Below, piece after piece: positions 1 through 7,609 of a stretch of 8,650 nucleotides of DNA (positions within the stretch are counted from its first letter, which is position 1; each line of letters begins with the position of its first letter). A program made the translations under genes and the position numbers. The notes beneath the pieces are model-generated. The model saw only the letters and a list, made by a program, of their open reading frames with translations. It ran no database searches and was not told where the DNA came from. The DNA is from an uncultured Synergistia bacterium (GTDB lineage Bacteria > Eremiobacterota > SpSt-956 > JAKJGF01), in contig CALARM010000718.1 of assembly GCA_937888925.1 (NCBI GenBank), positions 1-8,650 on the forward strand. The letters are read 5' to 3'.

Positions 1-198
1 AAAGCAAATTTCGATGCTCCCTTTATCATGAAAAAAGGAAGTACTGTTCTTGACTTTGCCGAAAGGGTTCATAAAGATCTGAAAGCCGGCCTCCAGTATG
101 CAAGGATATGGGGCTCATCAGAAAAATACACAGGTCAGAGAGTAAACAGGGATTATGAAGTCTGCGACGAAGATATTATAGAATTGAAAGTTTTTTAG
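1..198 (+). CDS. C-terminal TGS domain of a DRG/Obg-like GTPase (5'-truncated by the window)
   Basis: Frame 1 is open from the first base to a TAG at 196-198, giving 65 residues of a protein that starts upstream of the window. The end matches the TGS domain of developmentally regulated GTP-binding (DRG) and related Obg-type GTPases. Seen here are a segment like FIMKKGSTVLDFAERVHKDL, then YARIWGSS, and a close in which DEDIIEL precedes the last residues (the usual end of DRG TGS domains). In that family the TGS fold follows the G domain and is thought to contact RNA or the ribosome. The G1-G5 motifs are not in the window, so the GTPase assignment rests on the TGS tail alone; other TGS proteins (YchF, SpoT/RelA) fit the sequence less well. 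A heptad repeat array begins on the last base of the stop codon, and trxB follows 121 bp later on the same strand. Confidence 0.8.
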   Translation, partial: KANFDAPFIMKKGSTVLDFAERVHKDLKAGLQYARIWGSSEKYTGQRVNRDYEVCDEDIIELKVF

Positions 199-294
199 TG
201 AATCGTGAGTCGTGAGTCGTGAGACGTGAATAGTGAAATCAAGATGGCCTACGGTCACCGGTCACTGGTCACTGCTCACTGCTCACTGCTCACT
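198..294. repeat. Heptad inverted element 1
   Basis: Six 7-bp units of the form GTGANNN occupy 198-239 (GTGAATC, GTGAGTC, GTGAGTC, GTGAGAC, GTGAATA, GTGAAAT). After a 13-bp spacer, six more units occupy 253-294 (GGTCACC, GGTCACT twice, GCTCACT three times). The second array read in reverse complement (AGTGAGC) resembles the first, so the RNA could fold into a long imperfect hairpin whose register can slip by 7. The first unit shares its G with the TAG stop of the GTPase gene. The element fills nearly the whole gap before trxB and ends 8 bp before the trxB Shine-Dalgarno site. Confidence 0.85.
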
Positions 295-319
295 GAAACA
301 TGAAAGGAGTATATAACAA

Positions 320-1255
320 ATGGAAGAAAAACAACCATATAAAGTACTTATCATAGGCTCGGGGCCGGCAGGTATGACTGCTGCCCTCTATACGGCGAGA
401 GCCGATCTGTGTCCTGTAGTATTCGAAGGTAACCAGCCGGGAGGACAATTAACTATTACTACTGAAGTAGAAAATTTCCCCGGTTTTCCAGGAGGGATAA
501 TGGGCCCCGATCTTATGAATGAAATGAGAAAACAGGCGGAAAAATTCGGCGCCTTATTTATACAGAAAAATGTTGATTCTGTGGATTTTTCTGCAAAACC
601 TTTTAAAATAATGGCAGGCAAAGAAGCCTATCTTGCTAAAACAGTCATAATTGCTACAGGTGCTACGGCAAGATTACTGGGACTGGAGTCAGAGAAAAAA
701 CTTATGGGATATGGTGTTTCCGCATGTGCCACATGTGACGGTTTCTTTTTCCGCGATCAGGTTGTAATTGTAGTCGGAGGAGGAGATTCTGCCCTGGAAG
801 AAGCAAATTTCCTTACAAAATTTGCAAGTAAAGTTTACCTTGTCCACAGAAGAGATAAATTAAGAGGGTCAAAAATAATGCAGGCAAAAGCCGAGAAAAA
901 CCCTAAAATAGAATTTATCTGGAACAGTGTAGTAGAAGATATTCTTGGAGTGGAAGAAAAAGCAGTAAAAGGGGTAAAATTAAAAAATGTCATAACAGGG
1001 GAAATAACAGAGATGAAATGTGACGGAGTATTTGCAGCCATAGGTCACAGCCCCAATACGGAAATATTTAAAGGACAGGTAGATATAGACGAAAAGGGAT
1101 ATTTAGTCGTTAAAAATGGATCTCATACAAATATTCCGGGAGTATTTGCCGCAGGAGACGTTCATGATTTTACCTATCGCCAGGCAATTACCGCAGCAGG
1201 ATCAGGTTGCAGGGCAGCACTGGATGCAGAAAGATATCTGGAGAGTTTAGAATAA
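320..1255 (+). CDS. trxB: Thioredoxin reductase (NADPH, FAD flavoprotein)
   Basis: This is a 311-residue protein, the usual length for low-molecular-weight bacterial TrxB, which reduces thioredoxin with NADPH through FAD and a redox-active disulfide in the cytoplasm. The FAD-binding GSGPAG lies at residues 13-18 and the active-site pair is C136-A-T-C139. The NADPH-binding GGGDSA follows at 153-158. HRRDKLR at 176-182 is the HRRxxxR pattern that binds the NADPH 2'-phosphate, so NADPH rather than ferredoxin or F420 is the expected donor. The C-terminal FAD motif with G279-D280 is followed by the RQA segment. The ATG at 320 has AAAGGAG at 303-309, spaced 10 bp. No separate promoter was found in the heptad-filled gap upstream, so it may be transcribed with the GTPase gene. 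No thioredoxin gene lies in the window. Nothing looks truncated or unusual. Confidence 0.97.
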
Positions 1256-1290
1256 CTTAGGAATGAGTTCAAAATAACTGTCGCAAATGA

Positions 1291-1374
1291 GGGTGTTGGG
1301 TTATGGGTGTTGGGGGTTGGGTTAAGAAGCTTAAAACTTAAAACCTAAAACCCAAAACCCAAAACCTAAAACCT
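1291..1374. repeat. Heptad inverted element 2
   Basis: Five G-rich heptads at 1291-1325 (GGGTGTT, GGGTTAT, GGGTGTT, GGGGGTT, GGGTTAA) are followed after 7 bp by six heptads at 1333-1374 (AAAACTT, AAAACCT, AAAACCC twice, AAAACCT twice). The reverse complement of AAAACCC is GGGTTTT, so the two arrays pair as an imperfect hairpin closed by TTAAG/CTTAA around AAG. It lies between the convergent trxB and oxidoreductase genes, where it could slow or end transcription from either side, but there is no T-tract of a classical intrinsic terminator. The rest of the 227-bp gap (1256-1482) holds only heptad unit group 3 and about 80 bp with nothing I recognise. Confidence 0.85.
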
Positions 1375-1456
1375 GAGACAATTAATTAATTTTCATTCCT
1401 AACGGCCATAACCTGAGTGAACACAACGAAGTTTGAAAATTTGTGCCTCCCATCAC

Positions 1457-1484
1457 GCGTTACGCTTTATCCGTTACGCTTCTC
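1457..1484. repeat. Heptad array 3, single arm
   Basis: Four 7-bp units, GCGTTAC, GCTTTAT, CCGTTAC and GCTTCTC, run into the end of the minus-strand oxidoreductase gene; the last unit overlaps two bases of its TGA stop (1483-1485). No clear complementary array was found nearby, so this is either one arm only or a decayed element. The unit sequence differs from the other elements but the period is the same. Confidence 0.6.
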
Positions 1485-3006
1485 ATATAAAATTTTCTTT
1501 TAGAACCAGGCCGGCACACATCTGTGCCGAAACACATACTGTAACAATACCTGCACCGGGGAATACATACTGGCCTGTCTGATAGAGATTTTTTACAGGA
1601 CTTTTCAGGCTTCCTCTTTCTTTACCACTCTGTTCCACCGTGTGAGCAGGGCCCTGGAGGCCGCCTTTTGTGGCTCGTGTATATCTGTACATTGTAAGAG
1701 GAGTGGCGGTATTTTTAAGGAGAATTCTCTTTTCCAGATCAGGAATATAAAAAGACATATGTTTGATAATTTTTCCTGCAATTTCTTCTTTAAATTTATT
1801 ATATTCCGTTTTGTCGCCGTTTTTAATATACCAGTTCTGAGGGTGTTCGTAAGGAAAGAGGCAGGAAATATTAATACTTCTTTTACCGGGAGGGGCATTT
1901 TCTTTTCCTTCCACTGTAATTACGGAAGCTCTTGTGATGACATCAATATCCCATGCAAGAACTCTCTTATGATAGTCAGATCTGCATTCATCCATAGCAA
2001 AGGTGGTAACATGGTCAAGACCTTCCCCTTCTTCAATACCCAGGAATAACTGGAAGAGACTTCCTGATTGAACCTGTTTCTTTATCTTCTCAACAAAAGA
2101 TGTCTTTAAATATTCAGGTTCGAGAAGTTTTAAATAGGTTTCTTCATTGGAGGCATTGGAAATAATTACTTTTCCTTTAATAATATCGCCATTTTTAAGT
2201 ATAACACCGGAGGCTTTTTTATCTTCCACAAGAATCTTCGTCACGTCTTTAGAAACAACGACCTGTCCGTTGTGAGTGTCAATATACTCAACAAGTGCAT
2301 CTACAATGGTCTTTGTACCACCTTCTATTAAGCTCATACCTTCTCCGCCGTGATGGGCAGACCAGCAACCGGCAAAAGCGAGAAAACTCTGCTGTTCCAG
2401 AGGTAAAGTCGTATAATTGCCTACAGCAGAGGCAAAAATGATTAATTCTTCATCTCTAAAATAATGGTTCATAAAATCTATAGTCGTTTTATTCATACAT
2501 CGTAGCAGGAGATTATATTTTGTTAGAAGTTTTACCGGTATTTTTGCGCCCGAGGAAATATAAGCAAGTCCCTCACATATAAGCTTCATGTCCTTTAAAA
2601 ATTTTATAATATTTTTCTTTTCAGACGGAAAAAGAGACAGAAGATTGGCACTGTATTCGTCAATGTTAAGAGAAGCCTGAAGTGTTTTCGTTTTACTCTT
2701 TACCACATAGGAAGGCTCTAAAGAAACAGTCTTGATGTCTTTACCTGTCTTTTTGATTAATTCATAAATAGCTCCTCCGGGAGTTCTTACCTGAGTAACG
2801 CGATGTCCTCCTCCTTCAAAGAAAAAATCTCCTCTTTTAAACATAGTGGTGGCACCACCGGGAATAAAATGCTGTTCCAGCACAAGAACAGAAAGGCCTT
2901 TCTCTGTAAGATGAACGCCACAGGCAAGTCCCGCCATGCCGGAACCGATAATAATAACATCATAAGAATCTTTTTTTACTGTTTTCTCGTAAATAATTTT
3001 GTTCAT
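1483..3006 (-). CDS. CrtI/retinol-saturase-type FAD-dependent oxidoreductase
   Basis: The product (507 residues from the chosen start) belongs to the phytoene desaturase/carotene isomerase/all-trans-retinol 13,14-reductase family of FAD amine-oxidase-like enzymes. The N-terminal dinucleotide site GSGMAG is at residues 21-26, followed by the acidic ribose-binding E44 in VLVLEQH and then PGG. The family segment YRYTRATKGGLQGPAHT is at 440-456 and the C-terminal FAD site GQYVFPGAG at 478-486. I chose ATG 3006 over the TTG at 3012 because the GGAGG at 3014-3018 sits 7 nt from the ATG but only 1 nt from the TTG. A consensus promoter lies upstream at 3090-3117 and the leader contains heptad element 4. 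No phytoene synthase, GGPP synthase or other carotenoid gene is adjacent, so the substrate is unknown; the family also includes enzymes acting on other polyunsaturated or quinone-like lipids. Family assignment is firm, the reaction is not. Confidence 0.9.
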   Translation of the reverse strand: MNKIIYEKTVKKDSYDVIIIGSGMAGLACGVHLTEKGLSVLVLEQHFIPGGATTMFKRGDFFFEGGGHRVTQVRTPGGAIYELIKKTGKDIKTVSLEPSYVVKSKTKTLQASLNIDEYSANLLSLFPSEKKNIIKFLKDMKLICEGLAYISSGAKIPVKLLTKYNLLLRCMNKTTIDFMNHYFRDEELIIFASAVGNYTTLPLEQQSFLAFAGCWSAHHGGEGMSLIEGGTKTIVDALVEYIDTHNGQVVVSKDVTKILVEDKKASGVILKNGDIIKGKVIISNASNEETYLKLLEPEYLKTSFVEKIKKQVQSGSLFQLFLGIEEGEGLDHVTTFAMDECRSDYHKRVLAWDIDVITRASVITVEGKENAPPGKRSINISCLFPYEHPQNWYIKNGDKTEYNKFKEEIAGKIIKHMSFYIPDLEKRILLKNTATPLTMYRYTRATKGGLQGPAHTVEQSGKERGSLKSPVKNLYQTGQYVFPGAGIVTVCVSAQMCAGLVLKENFI

Positions 3007-3013
3007 AAACAAA

Positions 3014-3020
3014 CCTCCTT
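3014..3020 (-). promoter_or_regulatory. Shine-Dalgarno site that fixes the oxidoreductase start
   Basis: On the minus strand this reads AAGGAGG. It stands 7 nt before ATG 3006 and 1 nt before the in-frame TTG at 3012, so the ATG is the start. Confidence 0.9.
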
Positions 3021-3023
3021 TTT

Positions 3024-3083
3024 TCAGTTATCAGTTATCAGTTAAATGTATAAATACTGGTCACTGGTCATCACCCTTCACCC
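3024..3083. repeat. Heptad inverted element 4 in the oxidoreductase leader
   Basis: Three copies of TCAGTTA at 3024-3044 are followed after 11 bp by ACTGGTC, ACTGGTC, ATCACCC and TTCACCC at 3056-3083. ACTGGTC resembles the reverse complement of the first array (ACTGATA per unit), differing at a few positions, so a weak stem with 7-nt slippage is possible. The element lies between the predicted transcription start near 3083 and the Shine-Dalgarno site at 3014-3020, and so makes up most of the mRNA leader. Confidence 0.75.
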
Positions 3084-3089
3084 TTATAT

Positions 3090-3117
3090 ATTATATAAAT
3101 ATAAATAGTCGTGTCAA
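3090..3117 (-). promoter_or_regulatory. Consensus housekeeping-sigma promoter for the oxidoreductase gene
   Basis: On the minus strand TTGACA (plus positions 3112-3117) and TATAAT (3090-3095) are separated by 16 bp. Both hexamers match the sigma-70/sigma-A consensus exactly. Initiation would be near 3083, giving a leader of about 77 nt. Confidence 0.8.
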
Positions 3118-3121
3118 ATAA

Positions 3122-3150
3122 TTGCTATAAAAAAATATATATGTTATTAT
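3122..3150 (+). promoter_or_regulatory. Promoter for the methyltransferase-DUF4416 pair, giving a possibly leaderless mRNA
   Basis: TTGCTA at 3122-3127 and TATTAT at 3145-3150 are separated by 17 bp. Initiation 7-8 bp after the -10 box falls on or next to the ATG at 3158. The -35 box lies 4 bp from the -35 box of the divergent minus-strand promoter. A second, weaker choice is TGTCAA 3112-3117 with TATATA 3136-3141 (18 bp), which would leave only about a 10-nt leader. Confidence 0.55.
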
Positions 3151-3157
3151 ATGGCTT

Positions 3158-4297
3158 ATGAAAACTATAAATCTGATAGCTACTGCTACCTTTGGACTTG
3201 AAGCCATAGTGGCAGGCGAATTAAAAAATCTCGGTTATAATGCGGATAAGGTAGAAAACGGAAGGGTTACTTTTACAGGTGCAGAAACAGATATATGCCG
3301 CACAAATCTTCATCTTCGCACTTCTGACAGGGTTCTTATTAAAATGGGAGAGTTTCCTGCCACGACTTTTGAAGAATTGTTTGAAAAAACAAAGGCCCTT
3401 CCATGGGATGAATGGCTCCCGGAAGATGCATGTTTTCCTGTGGAAGGGAAATCTATAAGGTCAAAACTATTCAGTGTTCCCGACTGTCAGGCTATAGTAA
3501 AAAAAGCCATAGTGGAAAAACTCAAAAAGACTTACAAAAGAAGCTGGTTCAATGAAACAGGGGCAAAATATACAATAGAAGTGGGACTTCTTAAAGACAT
3601 AGCCACTCTCACTATAGACACAACAGGCCCCGGTCTTCACAGAAGAGGCTATAGAAAACTTGCAGGGCCGGCAACCCTTAAAGAAACCCTTGCAGCAGGA
3701 CTTATTTTAATAAGCAAATGGACTCATGACAGGGTATTAATAGATCCTTTCTGCGGCACCGGCACAATCCCTGTGGAAGCTGCCATGATAGGTCTTAATA
3801 TGCCACCCGGTCTCGGAAGAAATTTTGTCTCTGAAGAATGGCATAGAATACCTTCGTCTCTATGGGTTAAAGCAAGAGAAGAAGCAAAATCTTTTATTGT
3901 TCCTGATAGAGAATTACGTATACAGGGACTGGATATTAATGAAAAAATACTTGGTTCTGCCAGATATCATGCAAAGCAGGCAGGTGTAGATAAATTCATA
4001 CATTTTCAGTGCAGACCTGTAAGTGAATTGAGTTCCCGTTTTAAATACGGATTCATTATTACCAATCCTCCTTACGGAGAAAGAATGGGCGAGATTAAAG
4101 AGATTGAGAAACTTTACAGGGAGACAGGCAAAATCTTCGAAAGTCTTGACGGATGGTCTTATTATATAATAACATCCCATCCTGATTTCGAAAAACTCTT
4201 CAAAAGAAAAGCAGATAAAAAAAGAAAACTTTATAATGGTAAGATTCAGTGTTATTTACACCAATATTTCGGACCTGAGCCGAAGAAAGGCCCATAA
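3158..4297 (+). CDS. THUMP-domain class I SAM-dependent RNA methyltransferase (RlmL/YpsC/TrmN group)
   Basis: The 379-residue product has the size and order of the YpsC/RlmL N-half type: an N-terminal ferredoxin-like and THUMP region (about residues 1-155, opening with ATATFGLEAIVAGEL) and a Rossmann methyltransferase domain. SAM motif I is DPFCGTGT at 196-203 and the catalytic NPPYGER begins at N303; N/D-P-P-Y/F of this kind serves exocyclic amino methylation. The family makes N2-methylguanosine in 23S rRNA (RlmL, G2445) or in tRNA (TrmN/Trm14, G6), and the exact target cannot be read here. There is no Shine-Dalgarno sequence before ATG 3158, unlike every other gene in the window, and the promoter position suggests a leaderless transcript. 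DUF4416 follows after 2 bp, and AAAGG within the last codons supplies its ribosome site. Confidence 0.92.
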   Translation: MKTINLIATATFGLEAIVAGELKNLGYNADKVENGRVTFTGAETDICRTNLHLRTSDRVLIKMGEFPATTFEELFEKTKALPWDEWLPEDACFPVEGKSIRSKLFSVPDCQAIVKKAIVEKLKKTYKRSWFNETGAKYTIEVGLLKDIATLTIDTTGPGLHRRGYRKLAGPATLKETLAAGLILISKWTHDRVLIDPFCGTGTIPVEAAMIGLNMPPGLGRNFVSEEWHRIPSSLWVKAREEAKSFIVPDRELRIQGLDINEKILGSARYHAKQAGVDKFIHFQCRPVSELSSRFKYGFIITNPPYGERMGEIKEIEKLYRETGKIFESLDGWSYYIITSHPDFEKLFKRKADKKRKLYNGKIQCYLHQYFGPEPKKGP

Positions 4298-4299
4298 AC

Positions 4300-4854
4300 A
4301 TGGGGAAAATAAGACCTCCTAAAAAAGTAAAACTTTTCTGCGGCATGATCTCTTCCGATGAAGCACTGTTTAACAGCGTAATAGAAGATCTTACGTTAAA
4401 ATTTGGCTCTCTGGACAGTAAAAGTTCTGTTATGACTTTCAATCAGACTGATTACTACAAAGAAGAAATGGGAGAGAACCTTAAAAAATTCTTTGTAAGT
4501 TTTACACAACTTGTTGATTCTATCTTTCTTGTAGATGTAAAGATTTTCACACAGGAAATTGAAGAGAAATACTCCTTAAACGGGAAGAGAAGAATCAATC
4601 TCGACCCCGGTTATCTGTCAGAAGCGAAAATGGTTCTTGCCACAACAAAGGATCACCAGCACAGAATCTATATGGGTAAAGGTATATACGGTGAAGTAAC
4701 ACTGAAATTTAAGAATAAAACCTATGAGCCATGGGAATGGACCTATAATGATTATAAAAAAGAGGAATATATAACTTATTTTATAGAGTTAAGAAATATG
4801 CTTCGTCATCAGCTCGGAAGAAAACACAGTGATACCGGCGTGTCTGTTCCTTAA
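4300..4854 (+). CDS. DUF4416 family protein
   Basis: This 184-residue soluble protein matches DUF4416, a family of unknown function found in delta-proteobacteria-like and several deeply branching bacteria. Conserved-looking blocks are KPVKLF-like VKLFCG near residue 10, TDYY at 50-53 followed by EMGE, the core KRRINLDPGY (96-105), then KMVLATTKDHQHRIYMGKG (110-128) with GIYGEVTL, and a late aromatic block PWEWTYNDY (144-152). No signal peptide or membrane segment is visible. The start codon ATG at 4300 is 2 bp after the methyltransferase stop, with AAAGG at 4286-4290 spaced 9 bp, so the two genes are translationally close and co-transcribed. This association suggests, but does not show, a role in RNA or ribosome metabolism. 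The gene ends 13 bp from the convergent kinase gene, leaving no room for a separate terminator. Confidence 0.9.
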   Translation: MGKIRPPKKVKLFCGMISSDEALFNSVIEDLTLKFGSLDSKSSVMTFNQTDYYKEEMGENLKKFFVSFTQLVDSIFLVDVKIFTQEIEEKYSLNGKRRINLDPGYLSEAKMVLATTKDHQHRIYMGKGIYGEVTLKFKNKTYEPWEWTYNDYKKEEYITYFIELRNMLRHQLGRKHSDTGVSVP

Positions 4855-4867
4855 ATTATTTATCCTG

Positions 4868-6208
4868 TCAAAAGAATCCTGAAAATATAAGGGCAATAAC
4901 TACAAGAACCACAACTATTGTAGGCAGAAGATTTATGGCAGTCCCCATTATAGATATTACAAGCATTCCATAGCTCTGACTCTTCAGATCTTTGATTATA
5001 CCTTTTACTCCCAGTATGGTACCTGCGATAAAGGAAAGACCTACTATAAAGGGAGAGAGAAAAGACAGAGGGTATATACCTATGGAAAAGATGGTAAGAA
5101 AAGATGTAAGAACGGGAAGAACAAAACTCAGAAGGCCCGGATGAATATCTCCGAAGGTTTTTACTCTTCCCGGCTCCAAAGGCTCTCTTACAGCAGGAGA
5201 CATAAAACCATACTCTTTAAGGGCATATTCAATATCTGATTTCATTTCCATTGCACTCTGATATCTCTCGTCTCTTTCCAGTTTTATTGCTTTATTGATG
5301 ACTTTTTTAGTTATTTGACTTATAGAAGGATTAAAATTTTCCAATGGCGGAAAAAACAGAGGATTTTCCCTTTCTCTCGGATCACTTCCTGACATGAGAT
5401 AATGCATGGTTGCCCCCAGACTGTAAATGTCAGCCCTGTGATCTGTCTGTTTTTTTCCGTACTGTTCGGGAGCGGCAAAGCCCGGAGTTCCTATAGCCAT
5501 AGTATCTCTAGTCTTATGTTCTTTAAAGCTTCTTGCAATTCCAAAATCTATTAATTTTACCCGTCCGAATACATCTACAATGAGATTTTCCGGTTTTATA
5601 TCACGATAGATCAGGGGTTCGGGAAGATTATGAAGATAATTCAGGGTTTCACATACCTGTAAGGACCAGCTTAAAACGTCTTTTTCATCTATAAAGACAC
5701 CCATTTTTTTTGCATAAACATCCAGATTTTTCCCCTGAACATATTCCAGTACAAGATAATAGGTGCCAAGAAATTGAAACAGATCTATTGCTTTTACTAT
5801 CCCCGGATGAGAAAGCCTTGCAAGGGTGTCCCTTTCCTGCAAAAGAGCCATAGTCATTATTTCTTTTTCATTTATATCCGGAGAATAGGCTTCTTTTATT
5901 ATATATTTCAAATCTGTCATTATATCAATGGCCTGATATATACTTGCCATCCCCCCGACAGTAAAAAACTTAAGTCTGTATTTCTCTTTTAAAAGAAAAC
6001 CATCGGGAAGAACAAGAGCAGTTTTCTGAGGAGTAGTTACAGATATTCTGTTCTCTGCTATAGCTTCAGCACTATACCTGTTCCCATCAATTTTATTATA
6101 TTGCGGAATAGACGGGATTAATGATTCCGTCAAAACAAACCCGCACTCATGACAGAAACTCTCATTTTTATTTGTATATGTACCACAGGCAGGACATATT
6201 ATTTCCAT
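4868..6208 (-). CDS. Membrane-anchored Ser/Thr protein kinase with N-terminal zinc ribbon
   Basis: The product (446 residues from ATG 6208) begins with a Cys4 zinc ribbon, C5-x2-C8 and C19-x2-C22. After a linker comes a PknB-type kinase domain (about residues 77-330). Its nucleotide loop is TVGGMASIY, lacking the first glycine of the usual GxGGM pattern. It has K105 in IIKEAY, an RD-type catalytic loop IYRDIKPEN with D203 and N208, DFG at 221-223, and an APEQY motif with E248. All residues needed for phosphotransfer are present. About residues 358-443 are strongly hydrophobic with three or four predicted membrane spans and a very short tail, so the kinase and ribbon would face the cytoplasm with no extracellular sensor domain. 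The GTG at 6217 overlaps the GAGG site, so ATG 6208 (8 nt away) is the start. Substrates and signal are unknown; no phosphatase or FHA-domain gene is adjacent. Confidence 0.93.
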   Translation of the reverse strand: MEIICPACGTYTNKNESFCHECGFVLTESLIPSIPQYNKIDGNRYSAEAIAENRISVTTPQKTALVLPDGFLLKEKYRLKFFTVGGMASIYQAIDIMTDLKYIIKEAYSPDINEKEIMTMALLQERDTLARLSHPGIVKAIDLFQFLGTYYLVLEYVQGKNLDVYAKKMGVFIDEKDVLSWSLQVCETLNYLHNLPEPLIYRDIKPENLIVDVFGRVKLIDFGIARSFKEHKTRDTMAIGTPGFAAPEQYGKKQTDHRADIYSLGATMHYLMSGSDPRERENPLFFPPLENFNPSISQITKKVINKAIKLERDERYQSAMEMKSDIEYALKEYGFMSPAVREPLEPGRVKTFGDIHPGLLSFVLPVLTSFLTIFSIGIYPLSFLSPFIVGLSFIAGTILGVKGIIKDLKSQSYGMLVISIMGTAINLLPTIVVVLVVIALIFSGFF

Positions 6209-6214
6209 GAGGAA

Positions 6215-6220
6215 CACCTC
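6215..6220 (-). promoter_or_regulatory. Shine-Dalgarno site that fixes the kinase start
   Basis: The minus strand reads GAGGTG. GAGG (6217-6220) is 8 nt from ATG 6208 and physically overlaps the alternative GTG at 6217-6215, which rules the GTG out. Confidence 0.8.
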
Positions 6221-6227
6221 AGGGTTA

Positions 6228-6238
6228 ATTATAACATA
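6228..6238 (-). promoter_or_regulatory. Extended -10 promoter for the kinase gene
   Basis: The minus strand reads TATGTTATAAT, an extended -10 box (TG-N-TATAAT) with an exact TATAAT at plus positions 6228-6233. No good -35 box is seen, as is usual for extended -10 promoters. Initiation near 6221 would leave a leader of about 13 nt that still contains the GAGG site. The kinase can therefore be transcribed apart from the ureohydrolase gene 52 bp upstream. Confidence 0.6.
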
Positions 6239-6260
6239 AAATTTTCCTCTTTTACAGATT

Positions 6261-7190
6261 TCATTTATCCATTATAGCACCGAGAAAATCTATAATAAGT
6301 CTTGCTGCTACCTGGGCGGTAATTTCCCCATGATCAAACAGGGGATTTACCTCTACTATATCAAAACCGACAATATTACCTTTTTTGGGAAGACCTGTCA
6401 AAATTTCCTTTAACTGAAGATAACTTAAACCTCCCGGCTCCGGAGTACCTGTTCCCGGAGCTACGGAAGGGTCCAGAACATCAATATCTATTGTTACGTA
6501 AATGTCTTTACCATCCGGTATCTGTTCTAATGTCCAGTCTATGCCATTCCCTATTACTTTATTTGCCGTAATTATCTTTGAGCCATAATCTTTTGCTTCT
6601 TTGAAAATCATTAAAGGATTTAACAATCCCCTTATACCTATCTGAGTAATTTTATTTACATGGTCAAGTTCTGAACTTCTCTTCATTGGGTTTGCATGAG
6701 ACATACAGCCAAATCCTTCTACATCATCCATAAAATCCAGATGGGTATCGAAATGAATTATATCAATAGACTTGTCACTGAATGCTCTGATAAGAGGAAA
6801 GGTAATGGAATGATCTCCTCCTATAGTTACAGGAAACACTCCCTGTTTCAAAATTTCCGATATTTTCCCTGTTATCATGTCAAAATTCTTTTCAGGTGAA
6901 ACGGGCCCTACGGATATATCACCGTAATCAATGATTTTTTTCCCTTCCAATATAAATTTTTCCAGATCTACATCATATATTCCATTCCCCGGTTCAAATG
7001 TAACTCCGTAAAGCTGAGATGCAGATCTTATAGCTCTCGGCCCGAAACTTGTTCCAGAACGATTGGTAACGCCCGTATCAAGGGGGACTCCAATAATTGC
7101 TCCATCTACTCCCTCAAGGTTTCTGGTATGGCAAAATTTACAGAATGTAGAAATACCTGCAAATCCCATTTCTCTATCTTCAATATTCAT
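6261..7190 (-). CDS. speB: Agmatinase/arginase-family ureohydrolase
   Basis: This 309-residue protein has the complete dimanganese site of the ureohydrolase family: H127 in GGDHS, D148-T-H150-L-D152, and D235-I-D237 followed by VLDPSVAPGTGTPEPGG. E280 in the late VEVNP block matches the conserved guanidinium-contacting glutamate. Agmatinase (agmatine to putrescine and urea) is the usual annotation, but the family also covers guanidinobutyrase, guanidinopropionase, guanidine hydrolase and others. Here the metal motif reads DTHLDF instead of the common DAHTD and is followed by GCMSHANPMKR, a pattern I associate with a subgroup of unproven substrate. The symbol is therefore a family label only. 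ATG 7190 has AAAGGAG spaced 9 nt. No arginine decarboxylase or spermidine synthase gene is nearby to support a polyamine role. Confidence 0.85.
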   Translation of the reverse strand: MNIEDREMGFAGISTFCKFCHTRNLEGVDGAIIGVPLDTGVTNRSGTSFGPRAIRSASQLYGVTFEPGNGIYDVDLEKFILEGKKIIDYGDISVGPVSPEKNFDMITGKISEILKQGVFPVTIGGDHSITFPLIRAFSDKSIDIIHFDTHLDFMDDVEGFGCMSHANPMKRSSELDHVNKITQIGIRGLLNPLMIFKEAKDYGSKIITANKVIGNGIDWTLEQIPDGKDIYVTIDIDVLDPSVAPGTGTPEPGGLSYLQLKEILTGLPKKGNIVGFDIVEVNPLFDHGEITAQVAARLIIDFLGAIMDK

Positions 7191-7224
7191 TAAATATCTC
7201 TCCTTTGATAAATTGTAGCTTTAG

Positions 7225-7253
7225 AATATAGTTACTTTCATTACAATTCTTAA
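7225..7253 (-). promoter_or_regulatory. speB: Candidate promoter for the ureohydrolase gene
   Basis: On the minus strand TTAAGA (plus 7248-7253) and TATATT (7225-7230) are 17 bp apart, matching 4/6 and 5/6 of the consensus. Initiation near 7218 leaves a leader of under 30 nt that includes AAAGGAG. In DNA this AT-rich such a match could arise by chance. Confidence 0.4.
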
Positions 7254-7260
7254 TTAATGA

Positions 7261-7327
7261 GTGAAAAGTGAATAGTGAGTATTGAATAGAATAAGACATT
7301 AACTACTGTTCACTTTTCACTGTTCAC
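7261..7327. repeat. Heptad inverted element 5
   Basis: Four units, GTGAAAA, GTGAATA, GTGAGTA and TTGAATA (7261-7288), are followed after 18 bp by TGTTCAC, TTTTCAC and TGTTCAC (7307-7327). The second array in reverse complement is GTGAACA, GTGAAAA, GTGAACA, so the arms pair in the same heptad register. The unit GTGAATA also occurs in element 1, 7 kb away. It lies just upstream of the candidate ureohydrolase promoter, not inside a gene. Confidence 0.85.
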
Positions 7328-7609
7328 TATAATCAAATTCTAATAAGTTATGAAATACACTATAAGAATAAAATAAAAAATAAAATTATACTAAATTTCA
7401 CAGGTGATTAAAATTATTCTTATCTGGCCGGTTATGAGGTGTAAAATTCTTTAAAGAGGATCAAGGAGAGGATAATCAATAATAGAAAGATTGAATAACC
7501 TGGAATCTGTCAGGTCAGTAACTATGGACTGATTAAACAGGAAAAACAAGGAAAATTCTTTTATAGAAATCGGAATAAATCTTATGTTAATACCAAGCAC
7601 CTTCCTTTT

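Follow-up and report, generated by a model that had tools for sequence, protein, structure and literature searches.

The window considered here, the whole 8650-bp stretch of contig CALARM010000718.1 (GC content 0.376), carries the end of a gene for a TGS-domain protein and genes for a thioredoxin-reductase-like enzyme, a flavin adenine dinucleotide (FAD) enzyme of the amine-oxidase family, an RlmL-like methyltransferase, a DUF4416 protein, a protein kinase with a weak zinc-ribbon match, an arginase-family enzyme and an M48 peptidase with zinc-ribbon matches. Between these genes lie the elements under study, each composed of a G-rich array of tandem 7-bp units, a short spacer and a C-rich array resembling the reverse complement of the first (198-295, 1291-1374 and 7260-7328; Table 1). 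Element 1 starts on the final base of the TAG stop codon lying upstream (196-198), and its end is followed by an AAAGGAG stretch (303-309) ahead of the trxB-like start at 320. Four gaps of the window exceed 60 bp (199-319, 1256-1482, 3013-3157 and 7191-7609), and all of them carry period-7 arrays, as a first-pass annotation of this DNA had stated for almost every gap of that size.

Table 1. Repeat arrays in the window, with the z-score of the predicted RNA fold.
Feature	Position	Strand	Units and remarks	RNA fold z
Element 1, G-rich arm	198-237	+	GTGANNN units	
Element 1, C-rich arm	252-295	+	NNNTCAC units	-4.83 (element)
Element 2, G-rich arm	1291-1321	+	GGGTGTT-like units	
Element 2, C-rich arm	1330-1374	+	AAAACCC/TAAAACC units	-4.77 (element)
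Weak single C-rich repeat	1457-1484		short, imperfect, period 14 (CGTTACGCTT), score 10	-3.21
Site 4, TCAGTTA x3	3021-3044		reverse complement of TAACTGA	
Site 4, short ACTGGTC and TCACCCT arrays	3056-3085		weak pairing with the TCAGTTA array	
Element 5, G-rich arm	7260-7288	+	GTGAAAA/GTGAATA units	
Element 5, C-rich arm	7305-7328	+	TGTTCAC/TTTTCAC units	-4.15 (element)

The same annotation had placed tandem 7-bp units at five sites, four of them with a second, inverted array. Repeats are present at all five places, although the weak C-rich one has a period of 14 and no clear partner array was seen for it, and a clear inverted partner is limited to three sites. The fourth (3021-3085) is a weak compound of TCAGTTA, ACTGGTC and TCACCCT units with a poor predicted fold (z -1.77, 9 of 200 shuffles folding equally well). 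In the RNA folding that had been proposed as a check, the three paired elements fold well. On the minus strand, a sigma-70-like promoter with 12 of 12 consensus bases (TTGACA, 16 nt, TATAAT; 3117-3090) points toward the FAD-enzyme gene (start 3012), and the site-4 arrays, located between this promoter and the start codon, would fall in the transcribed leader.

An ungapped repeat scan over periods 2-25 (segment score of at least 10) returned segments at periods 7, 14 and 21 only, with none in the coding regions of the window, and Tandem Repeats Finder, run at a low threshold of 30, added a period-13 repeat within the kinase gene (5085-5112), as well as a period-6 repeat (3093-3107), a period-10 repeat (7535-7555) and an AAAATAA repeat (7370-7385). 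The four gaps hold eight period-7 arrays and three facing pairs with the G-rich array first (hereafter G-first, the opposite order being C-first), compared to a mean of 0.018 arrays, a maximum of one and no pairs in 2000 dinucleotide-preserving shuffles of the gaps. The period-7 arrays of the window are real, and the shuffling of intergenic sequence, which the first-pass annotation had named as able to overturn its proposal, came out in its favour. Its statement that the elements occur in no gene holds within the window, as seen by the ungapped scan, but not elsewhere, where some elements lie within open reading frames (ORFs).

The main regularity, absent from that annotation, is the polarity of the elements: the G-rich array comes first and the C-rich array second. 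As reverse complementation leaves either order of a facing pair unchanged, equal numbers of both are expected by chance. In paired scans of IMG/VR, the G-first and C-first stretches numbered 85 and 5 for GTGANNN, 19 and 0 for AGTGGNN and 34 and 0 for GGGANNN; four of the five C-first GTGANNN stretches (L095, L122, L142 and L162) are one homologous locus, as judged by flank alignment, and three of these four also carry G-first matches. Arrays of many unit types off the GTGA pattern formed 29 G-first and no C-first pairs, besides 5 GG and 4 CC pairs, near-equal G/C pairs being left out of this count. Ordinary inverted repeats from the same sequences (perfect arms of at least 9 bp), used as a control, were split 296 against 296 (646 near even). 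Inverted arms are present in 172 of 222 adjacent pairs, a count that includes near-equal G/C pairs, with 160 G-first, 6 C-first and 6 even, and a skew difference of at least 0.3 leaves 145 against 2; these totals, like those by period 4-12 and by position given below, are biased by loci mostly fetched with G-first patterns, the fair comparisons being the paired scans and, less so, the off-GTGA arrays. Identical element sequences were collapsed, and the counts are not independent events, since near-identical strains and host DNA occur among the IMG/VR contigs. In the arms, G makes up 44% and C 8% of the G strand.

The six C-first adjacent pairs come from L289 (three), from genome G296 through L337 (two) and from L113 (one), and their units are weakly skewed or balanced in every case. 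Genome G296 (L335-L338), which belongs to the group of G004, carries several GC-balanced GCACTNN arrays paired CACT first, this order being found at three places and AGTG first at none. Among 299 genomes drawn around a Peptococcaceae genome, the G-first GTGANNN pattern occurs in 3 and the reversed control (CACT first) in 1, namely G296, numbers too few for a polarity test in that group. Stop codons were considered as the sole cause of polarity and rejected, as the AGTGG and GGGA cores are polarised too.

The period is not solely 7, as the same paired architecture also exists in an 8-bp version. A control scan at period 8 was positive (27 stretches), rejecting period 7 as unique, and the octad loci hold 25 G-first and no C-first period-8 pairs, an octad polarity that rests on loci fetched with a G-first pattern. 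Some contigs have octads without heptads (e.g., L313, L328 and L330), and others have both kinds. When pairs were counted by period from 4 to 12 in 310 sequences, a set enriched for period 7 by retrieval and again leaving out near-equal G/C pairs, period 7 gave 161 G-first and 3 C-first, period 8 gave 6 and 0, and every other period gave at most 4 pairs, except period 9 (3 G-first and 2 CC). The phage contigs L328 (719-10741) and L313 carry five and four 8-bp-period paired elements, respectively, whose GTGACAAG/GTGAGGGG arms and A/T-flanked GC spacers give them the look of related copies, and in some of them a variant unit stands second from the centre in both arms.

Regarding the units themselves, the arms were compared at their variable positions in four classes: GTGANNN (92 elements), GTGANNNN (28), GGGANNN (27) and AGTGGNN (20). 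The similarity between the two arms of an element is.527,.548,.599 and.601 in these classes, respectively, against.324,.327,.367 and.323 to other contigs, and different elements within one contig, compared for GTGANNN only (46 comparisons), reach.430. Permuting the unit order in one arm produced little change (z from -1.84 to 1.96 in the four classes, with short arms limiting the test), and mirrored order was not found for GTGANNN at any shift or from either end in the four classes. Snap-back copying of one arm onto the other was rejected for the same lack of mirrored order. The first-pass annotation had suggested a process that conserves period and hairpin form rather than sequence. Its first half is supported, as the periodic, paired architecture is kept while the unit varies, both across unrelated sequences and between the sister contigs L109 and L127 at one junction; conservation of the hairpin form as such, however, is not supported, the unit order of one arm not being mirrored in the other in any class. 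What is conserved is the polarity and a pool of units common to both arms, not exact hairpin pairing.

A first explanation for such arms is replication slippage within tandem heptads, combined with template switching in the hairpin, where steps of seven would preserve the period and exchange between arms would keep them alike. Slippage at heptads, a proposal that passages of PMC4679880 and PMC4692102 credit to Mrazek 2007, agrees with the excess of period-7 arrays over other periods, with the difference in array length between the related contigs L087 and L139 and with the similarity of units within an arm (.580 GTGANNN,.538 GTGANNNN,.696 GGGANNN and.749 AGTGGNN), which surpasses that between arms in three of the four classes. 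However, adjacent units resemble each other hardly more than any two units of an arm do, slippage of a single array does not yield a facing pair, and hairpin exchange should leave some of the mirrored order that is missing here. In addition, polarity is not predicted by slippage itself, and this account is regarded as possible, although rather doubtful.

The position of the elements relative to genes was surveyed for 167 distinct pairs using rough ORF calls; 24 of them lie within an ORF and 12 at the edge of a contig. The median distance of element edges is 12 nt to a neighbouring stop (n = 143) and 50 nt to a start (n = 119). The gaps of the 131 placed elements are co-directional in 71 cases, convergent in 36 and divergent in 24, compared to 1225, 468 and 395 of 2088 background gaps of at least 40 bp. 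Moreover, of 334 arm ends, 41 have at least six T in the following 12 nt, compared to 9 when the stretch at 40-52 nt is counted. Both the closeness to stops and this T-richness, together with the good folding of the three window sites and the TGA that GTGANNN gives in all three frames of both strands, as read from its sequence, would suit a selected cis element, such as a bidirectional terminator or messenger RNA-end hairpin, a two-way stop signal or an operator for a heptad-binding protein. Omega-type repressors bind heptads with a TCAC core. Selection of this kind is nevertheless unlikely: none of the 10 terminator-like sites of the window (a stem followed by a T tract) falls on an element, convergent gaps are only slightly favoured, some elements lie within an ORF, and the T-richness beyond the arms may in part reflect ribosome binding sites read on the opposite strand. 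The unmirrored unit order also speaks against it, cores without a stop codon are equally polarised, and selection for termination or protein binding leaves the element-specific pool unexplained.

The elements are not restricted to the lineage of the window. A similarity search with element 1 returned one phage record and 15 plasmid records, leading to DNA of Euhalothece, Sulfurovum, Annamia and Halomonas. All four, of which Euhalothece and Annamia are cyanobacteria, have arrays in their plasmid records, and IMG/VR contigs carry arrays as well, some of these contigs having phage genes (L149, with a T7 gp14-like protein, and L328, with terminase, portal and capsid). Facing pairs were seen in Annamia (three) and in the 3 of 299 genomes mentioned above, and in Euhalothece, Sulfurovum and Halomonas the matches are arrays, not pairs. 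The Sulfurovum "plasmid" record (L174-L177, NZ_CP087125.1) encodes pheST, ribosomal proteins S1, S9 and L13 and tricarboxylic acid cycle genes, and may be a chromosomal contig. A record titled Calditrichales (L062/G007, JAJGRE010000001.1) gave a phylum-level genome sample identical to that of the Peptococcaceae genome (G009-G068), and its title may not match its placement.

As for the host of the window, its DUF4416 protein is 90% identical to a protein labelled Candidatus Eremiobacterota, and the nearest named relatives of the neighbouring RlmL-like gene (3158-4297) belong to Clostridia and other Bacillota (about 65-69% identity), a disagreement that suggests possible horizontal transfer of the latter. 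The loci retrieved with RlmL as query hold eight arrays in 7 of 80 loci, mostly titled Bacillota, and none of the 80 RlmL-bearing loci checked for synteny with the window genes was usable, the RlmL relatives being mostly Bacillota. A search of the window against Rfam gave no family reaching its gathering score.

Turnover of the elements could be followed in a surrogate lineage that is not kin to the window, a phage head-gene module with portal, a small gene, an S78 prohead protease and capsid (assigned by Pfam) in 80 IMG/VR loci. Of the 84 ids prepared for the junction comparison, the three genes were all present in 77, and the tree was built with 76, the state of each row being assigned to class H, K, P, e or o by a rough rule. 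Between portal and small gene (site B), 49 rows are empty or short, many with abutting or overlapping genes, while GTGANNN elements occupy 10 rows, AGTGGCG-type heptads 8, a CTCCCC palindromic element of unrelated kind 5 and other sequence 4; between small gene and protease (site A), the corresponding numbers are 23, 10, 12, 24 and 7. The states interleave on the tree, even among 24 rows that form a clade and share about 90-100% protease identity with L151. The unit type at site A differs between the sisters L109 and L127 (0.0084 and 0.013 changes per site), and L184 and L194, also sisters (0.016 and 0.02 changes per site), differ by presence. Gain, loss or replacement of the whole element at one junction among close relatives is observed in this lineage, in which recombination between strains may have moved alleles at these junctions. 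The palindromic element (CTCCCC...GGGGAG) forms inserts of roughly 90-200 bp at site A in 24 of 76 rows (L180-L258), and in L188 and L190 it apparently lies inside remnants of heptad arrays.

Of the 10 GTGANNN rows, 9 have an uninterrupted protease reading frame along the full length of the site-A insert, as do 5 of the 12 AGTGGCG-type rows. A frame open to within 15 nt is seen in 10 of 10 GTGANNN, 11 of 12 AGTGGCG-type and 24 of 24 palindromic-element rows. As the palindromic-element rows pass the looser test too, an open frame by itself says little in DNA as GC-rich as this. Where GTGA as the third unit would give an in-frame stop, 9 of the 10 GTGANNN rows have GGGA, GGGG or GCGA instead, these nine rows probably being one event by descent.

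Such whole insertions at gene junctions recall a mobile family related to repetitive extragenic palindromic (REP) sequences or miniature inverted-repeat transposable elements, whose ends would be arrays of short binding sites for a transposase supplied elsewhere. The five related octad copies with similar spacers in L328 and the AAAGNCTTT-like spacers common to one contig family point in this direction. However, elements of one genome are often unlike, as in sites 1, 2 and 5 of the window, sister contigs have different unit classes at the same junction, and no conserved sequence was found at the outer ends of GTGANNN elements (n = 185 ends). The TGA or ATGA at both ends of the inserts may be a target duplication or retained stop and start codons, the two being indistinguishable. 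A conserved insertion target at the element ends was also looked for, and none was seen. Mobility is accordingly held to be quite unlikely.

Ahead of slippage, regulation and mobility, a writing of units onto DNA ends is tentatively favoured, as a possibility that falls well short of being probable. A broken or stalled DNA end would have short G-rich units added successively to both of its 3' ends by a hypothetical enzyme with its template, and the extended ends would then be joined, resulting in the G-first, C-second order on either strand, like a head-to-head fusion of two telomere-like ends. The product would be a small inserted element, written on the spot and not copied from elsewhere, with two facing arrays of 7-nt units (8-nt in some lineages), the strand rich in G and poor in C pointing inward on either side. 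As the units of one event would come from a single source, the arms would be alike without being mirror copies. Surviving elements would be those that fit between a stop codon and the ribosome binding site that follows, or that keep a reading frame open, and the hairpin would be a by-product, perhaps sometimes used, e.g., as a terminator.

This end-writing is consistent with the polarity of the three unit classes and the off-pattern arrays, compared to the even split of ordinary inverted repeats, and with the strand composition of arms that are alike within an element but not mirrored in order. It also agrees with the unlike elements within one genome, with the different types, or none, at one junction and with the lack of conserved outer ends. 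Several observations weigh against it. The writing enzyme and its template are purely hypothetical; polarity is not absolute, as the reversed pairs in contigs L289 and L113 and genome G296 reject it as a strict law; the excess of within-arm over between-arm similarity points to arm-specific homogenisation, such as slippage, from which it is expected and which end-writing does not require; and the five octad elements of L328, with their similar spacers, look like copies. A broader form of the proposal, in which a telomerase-like activity in bacteria and phages of many lineages would add G-rich 7- or 8-nt units to both 3' ends before joining, the polarised pairs being its scars and the step size and unit dialect being lineage-specific, seems decidedly improbable at present.

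Heptad repeats have so far been described unit by unit, without an agreed origin. The polarity across unit sequences and the shared but unordered units suggest one process, and they narrow the candidates, since polarity is unexplained by slippage and the missing mirror order is unexplained by selection on exact hairpin pairing. They also provide a search rule independent of sequence, namely two facing 7- or 8-bp arrays with the G-rich one first, and make the question testable through the genes that accompany array-rich genomes and through whether new elements appear whole or unit by unit.

Comparing these elements with known systems, the short tandemly repeated repetitive (STRR) sequences of heterocystous cyanobacteria are also built from heptanucleotide tandem units. 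The window does not belong with them by host, as its DUF4416 protein points to Eremiobacterota. In Geobacter metallireducens, tandem heptads (GGGACCG x4 and MTYCTGA x5) and octads (GTTGCTYN x4) occur in many copies, differing in that the passages of PMC2700814 describe them as putative regulatory sites and do not state a polarity. For Borg tandem repeats, part of PMC9879509 ties a composition bias to their formation. A role of the G2L4 reverse transcriptase in break repair has also been reported. The GTAG- or CGTC-tagged REP elements, as presented in sections of PMC3733652, are likewise small palindromic gap repeats, frequently found downstream of genes and in some cases inside them, and they also form head-to-head dimers; however, they consist of dispersed copies of conserved 5-13 bp stems that bear a terminal tag, and 7-bp arrays are absent. 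Unlike the dispersed copies of the REP/RAYT system, with their conserved terminal GTAG tag and stem, the 185 GTGANNN element ends share no conserved outer sequence.

TAACTGA arrays are known from Beggiatoaceae, cyanobacteria and Bacteroidetes, with mixed heptamers in Microcystis (MacGregor 2015, PMC4679880, in part). They are heptamer arrays in gaps, as here, and the TCAGTTA x3 array of the window (3024-3044), the reverse complement of TAACTGA, is its only array of this direct-repeat kind, the other sites having other units. According to the same passages, TAACTGA repeats differ in being mostly single direct arrays toward start codons, with one inverted repeat, and related heptamers are rare in that genome.

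The closest relatives are the GGGAATC heptads of Xanthomonas, for which sections of Rehm 2015 (PMC4692102) count 70 convergent pairs in Xcc and 75 in Xac and mention that stem-loops are possible, with only a few convergent pairs in Nostoc. The GGGAATC and GGGGA(C/T)T repeats of Xanthomonas and Nostoc share with the present elements the 7-bp tandem units, the intergenic location near stop codons and the G-rich first array, and the length and sequence of the Xanthomonas repeats vary between the two species at the same genes. The three window elements are convergent pairs of this kind, as are the GGGANNN pairs of IMG/VR. By contrast, the G tracts of GGGANTN units, capable of forming G-quadruplexes, are not the rule in the window, as elements 1 and 5 consist of GTGANNN and the G arm of element 2 has GGG runs, judging by the letters alone. 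The sections of that study also differ in reporting one unit type per organism, with polarity not compared to the reverse order or to other units and the arm pool not tested, and no statement of a polarity rule across units or of an unordered common pool was found in the literature, of which subscription titles were only thinly covered. The elements described here form a wider class beyond the Xanthomonas GGGAATC pairs, with the same design, nearly always G-rich first, in unrelated bacteria and phages.

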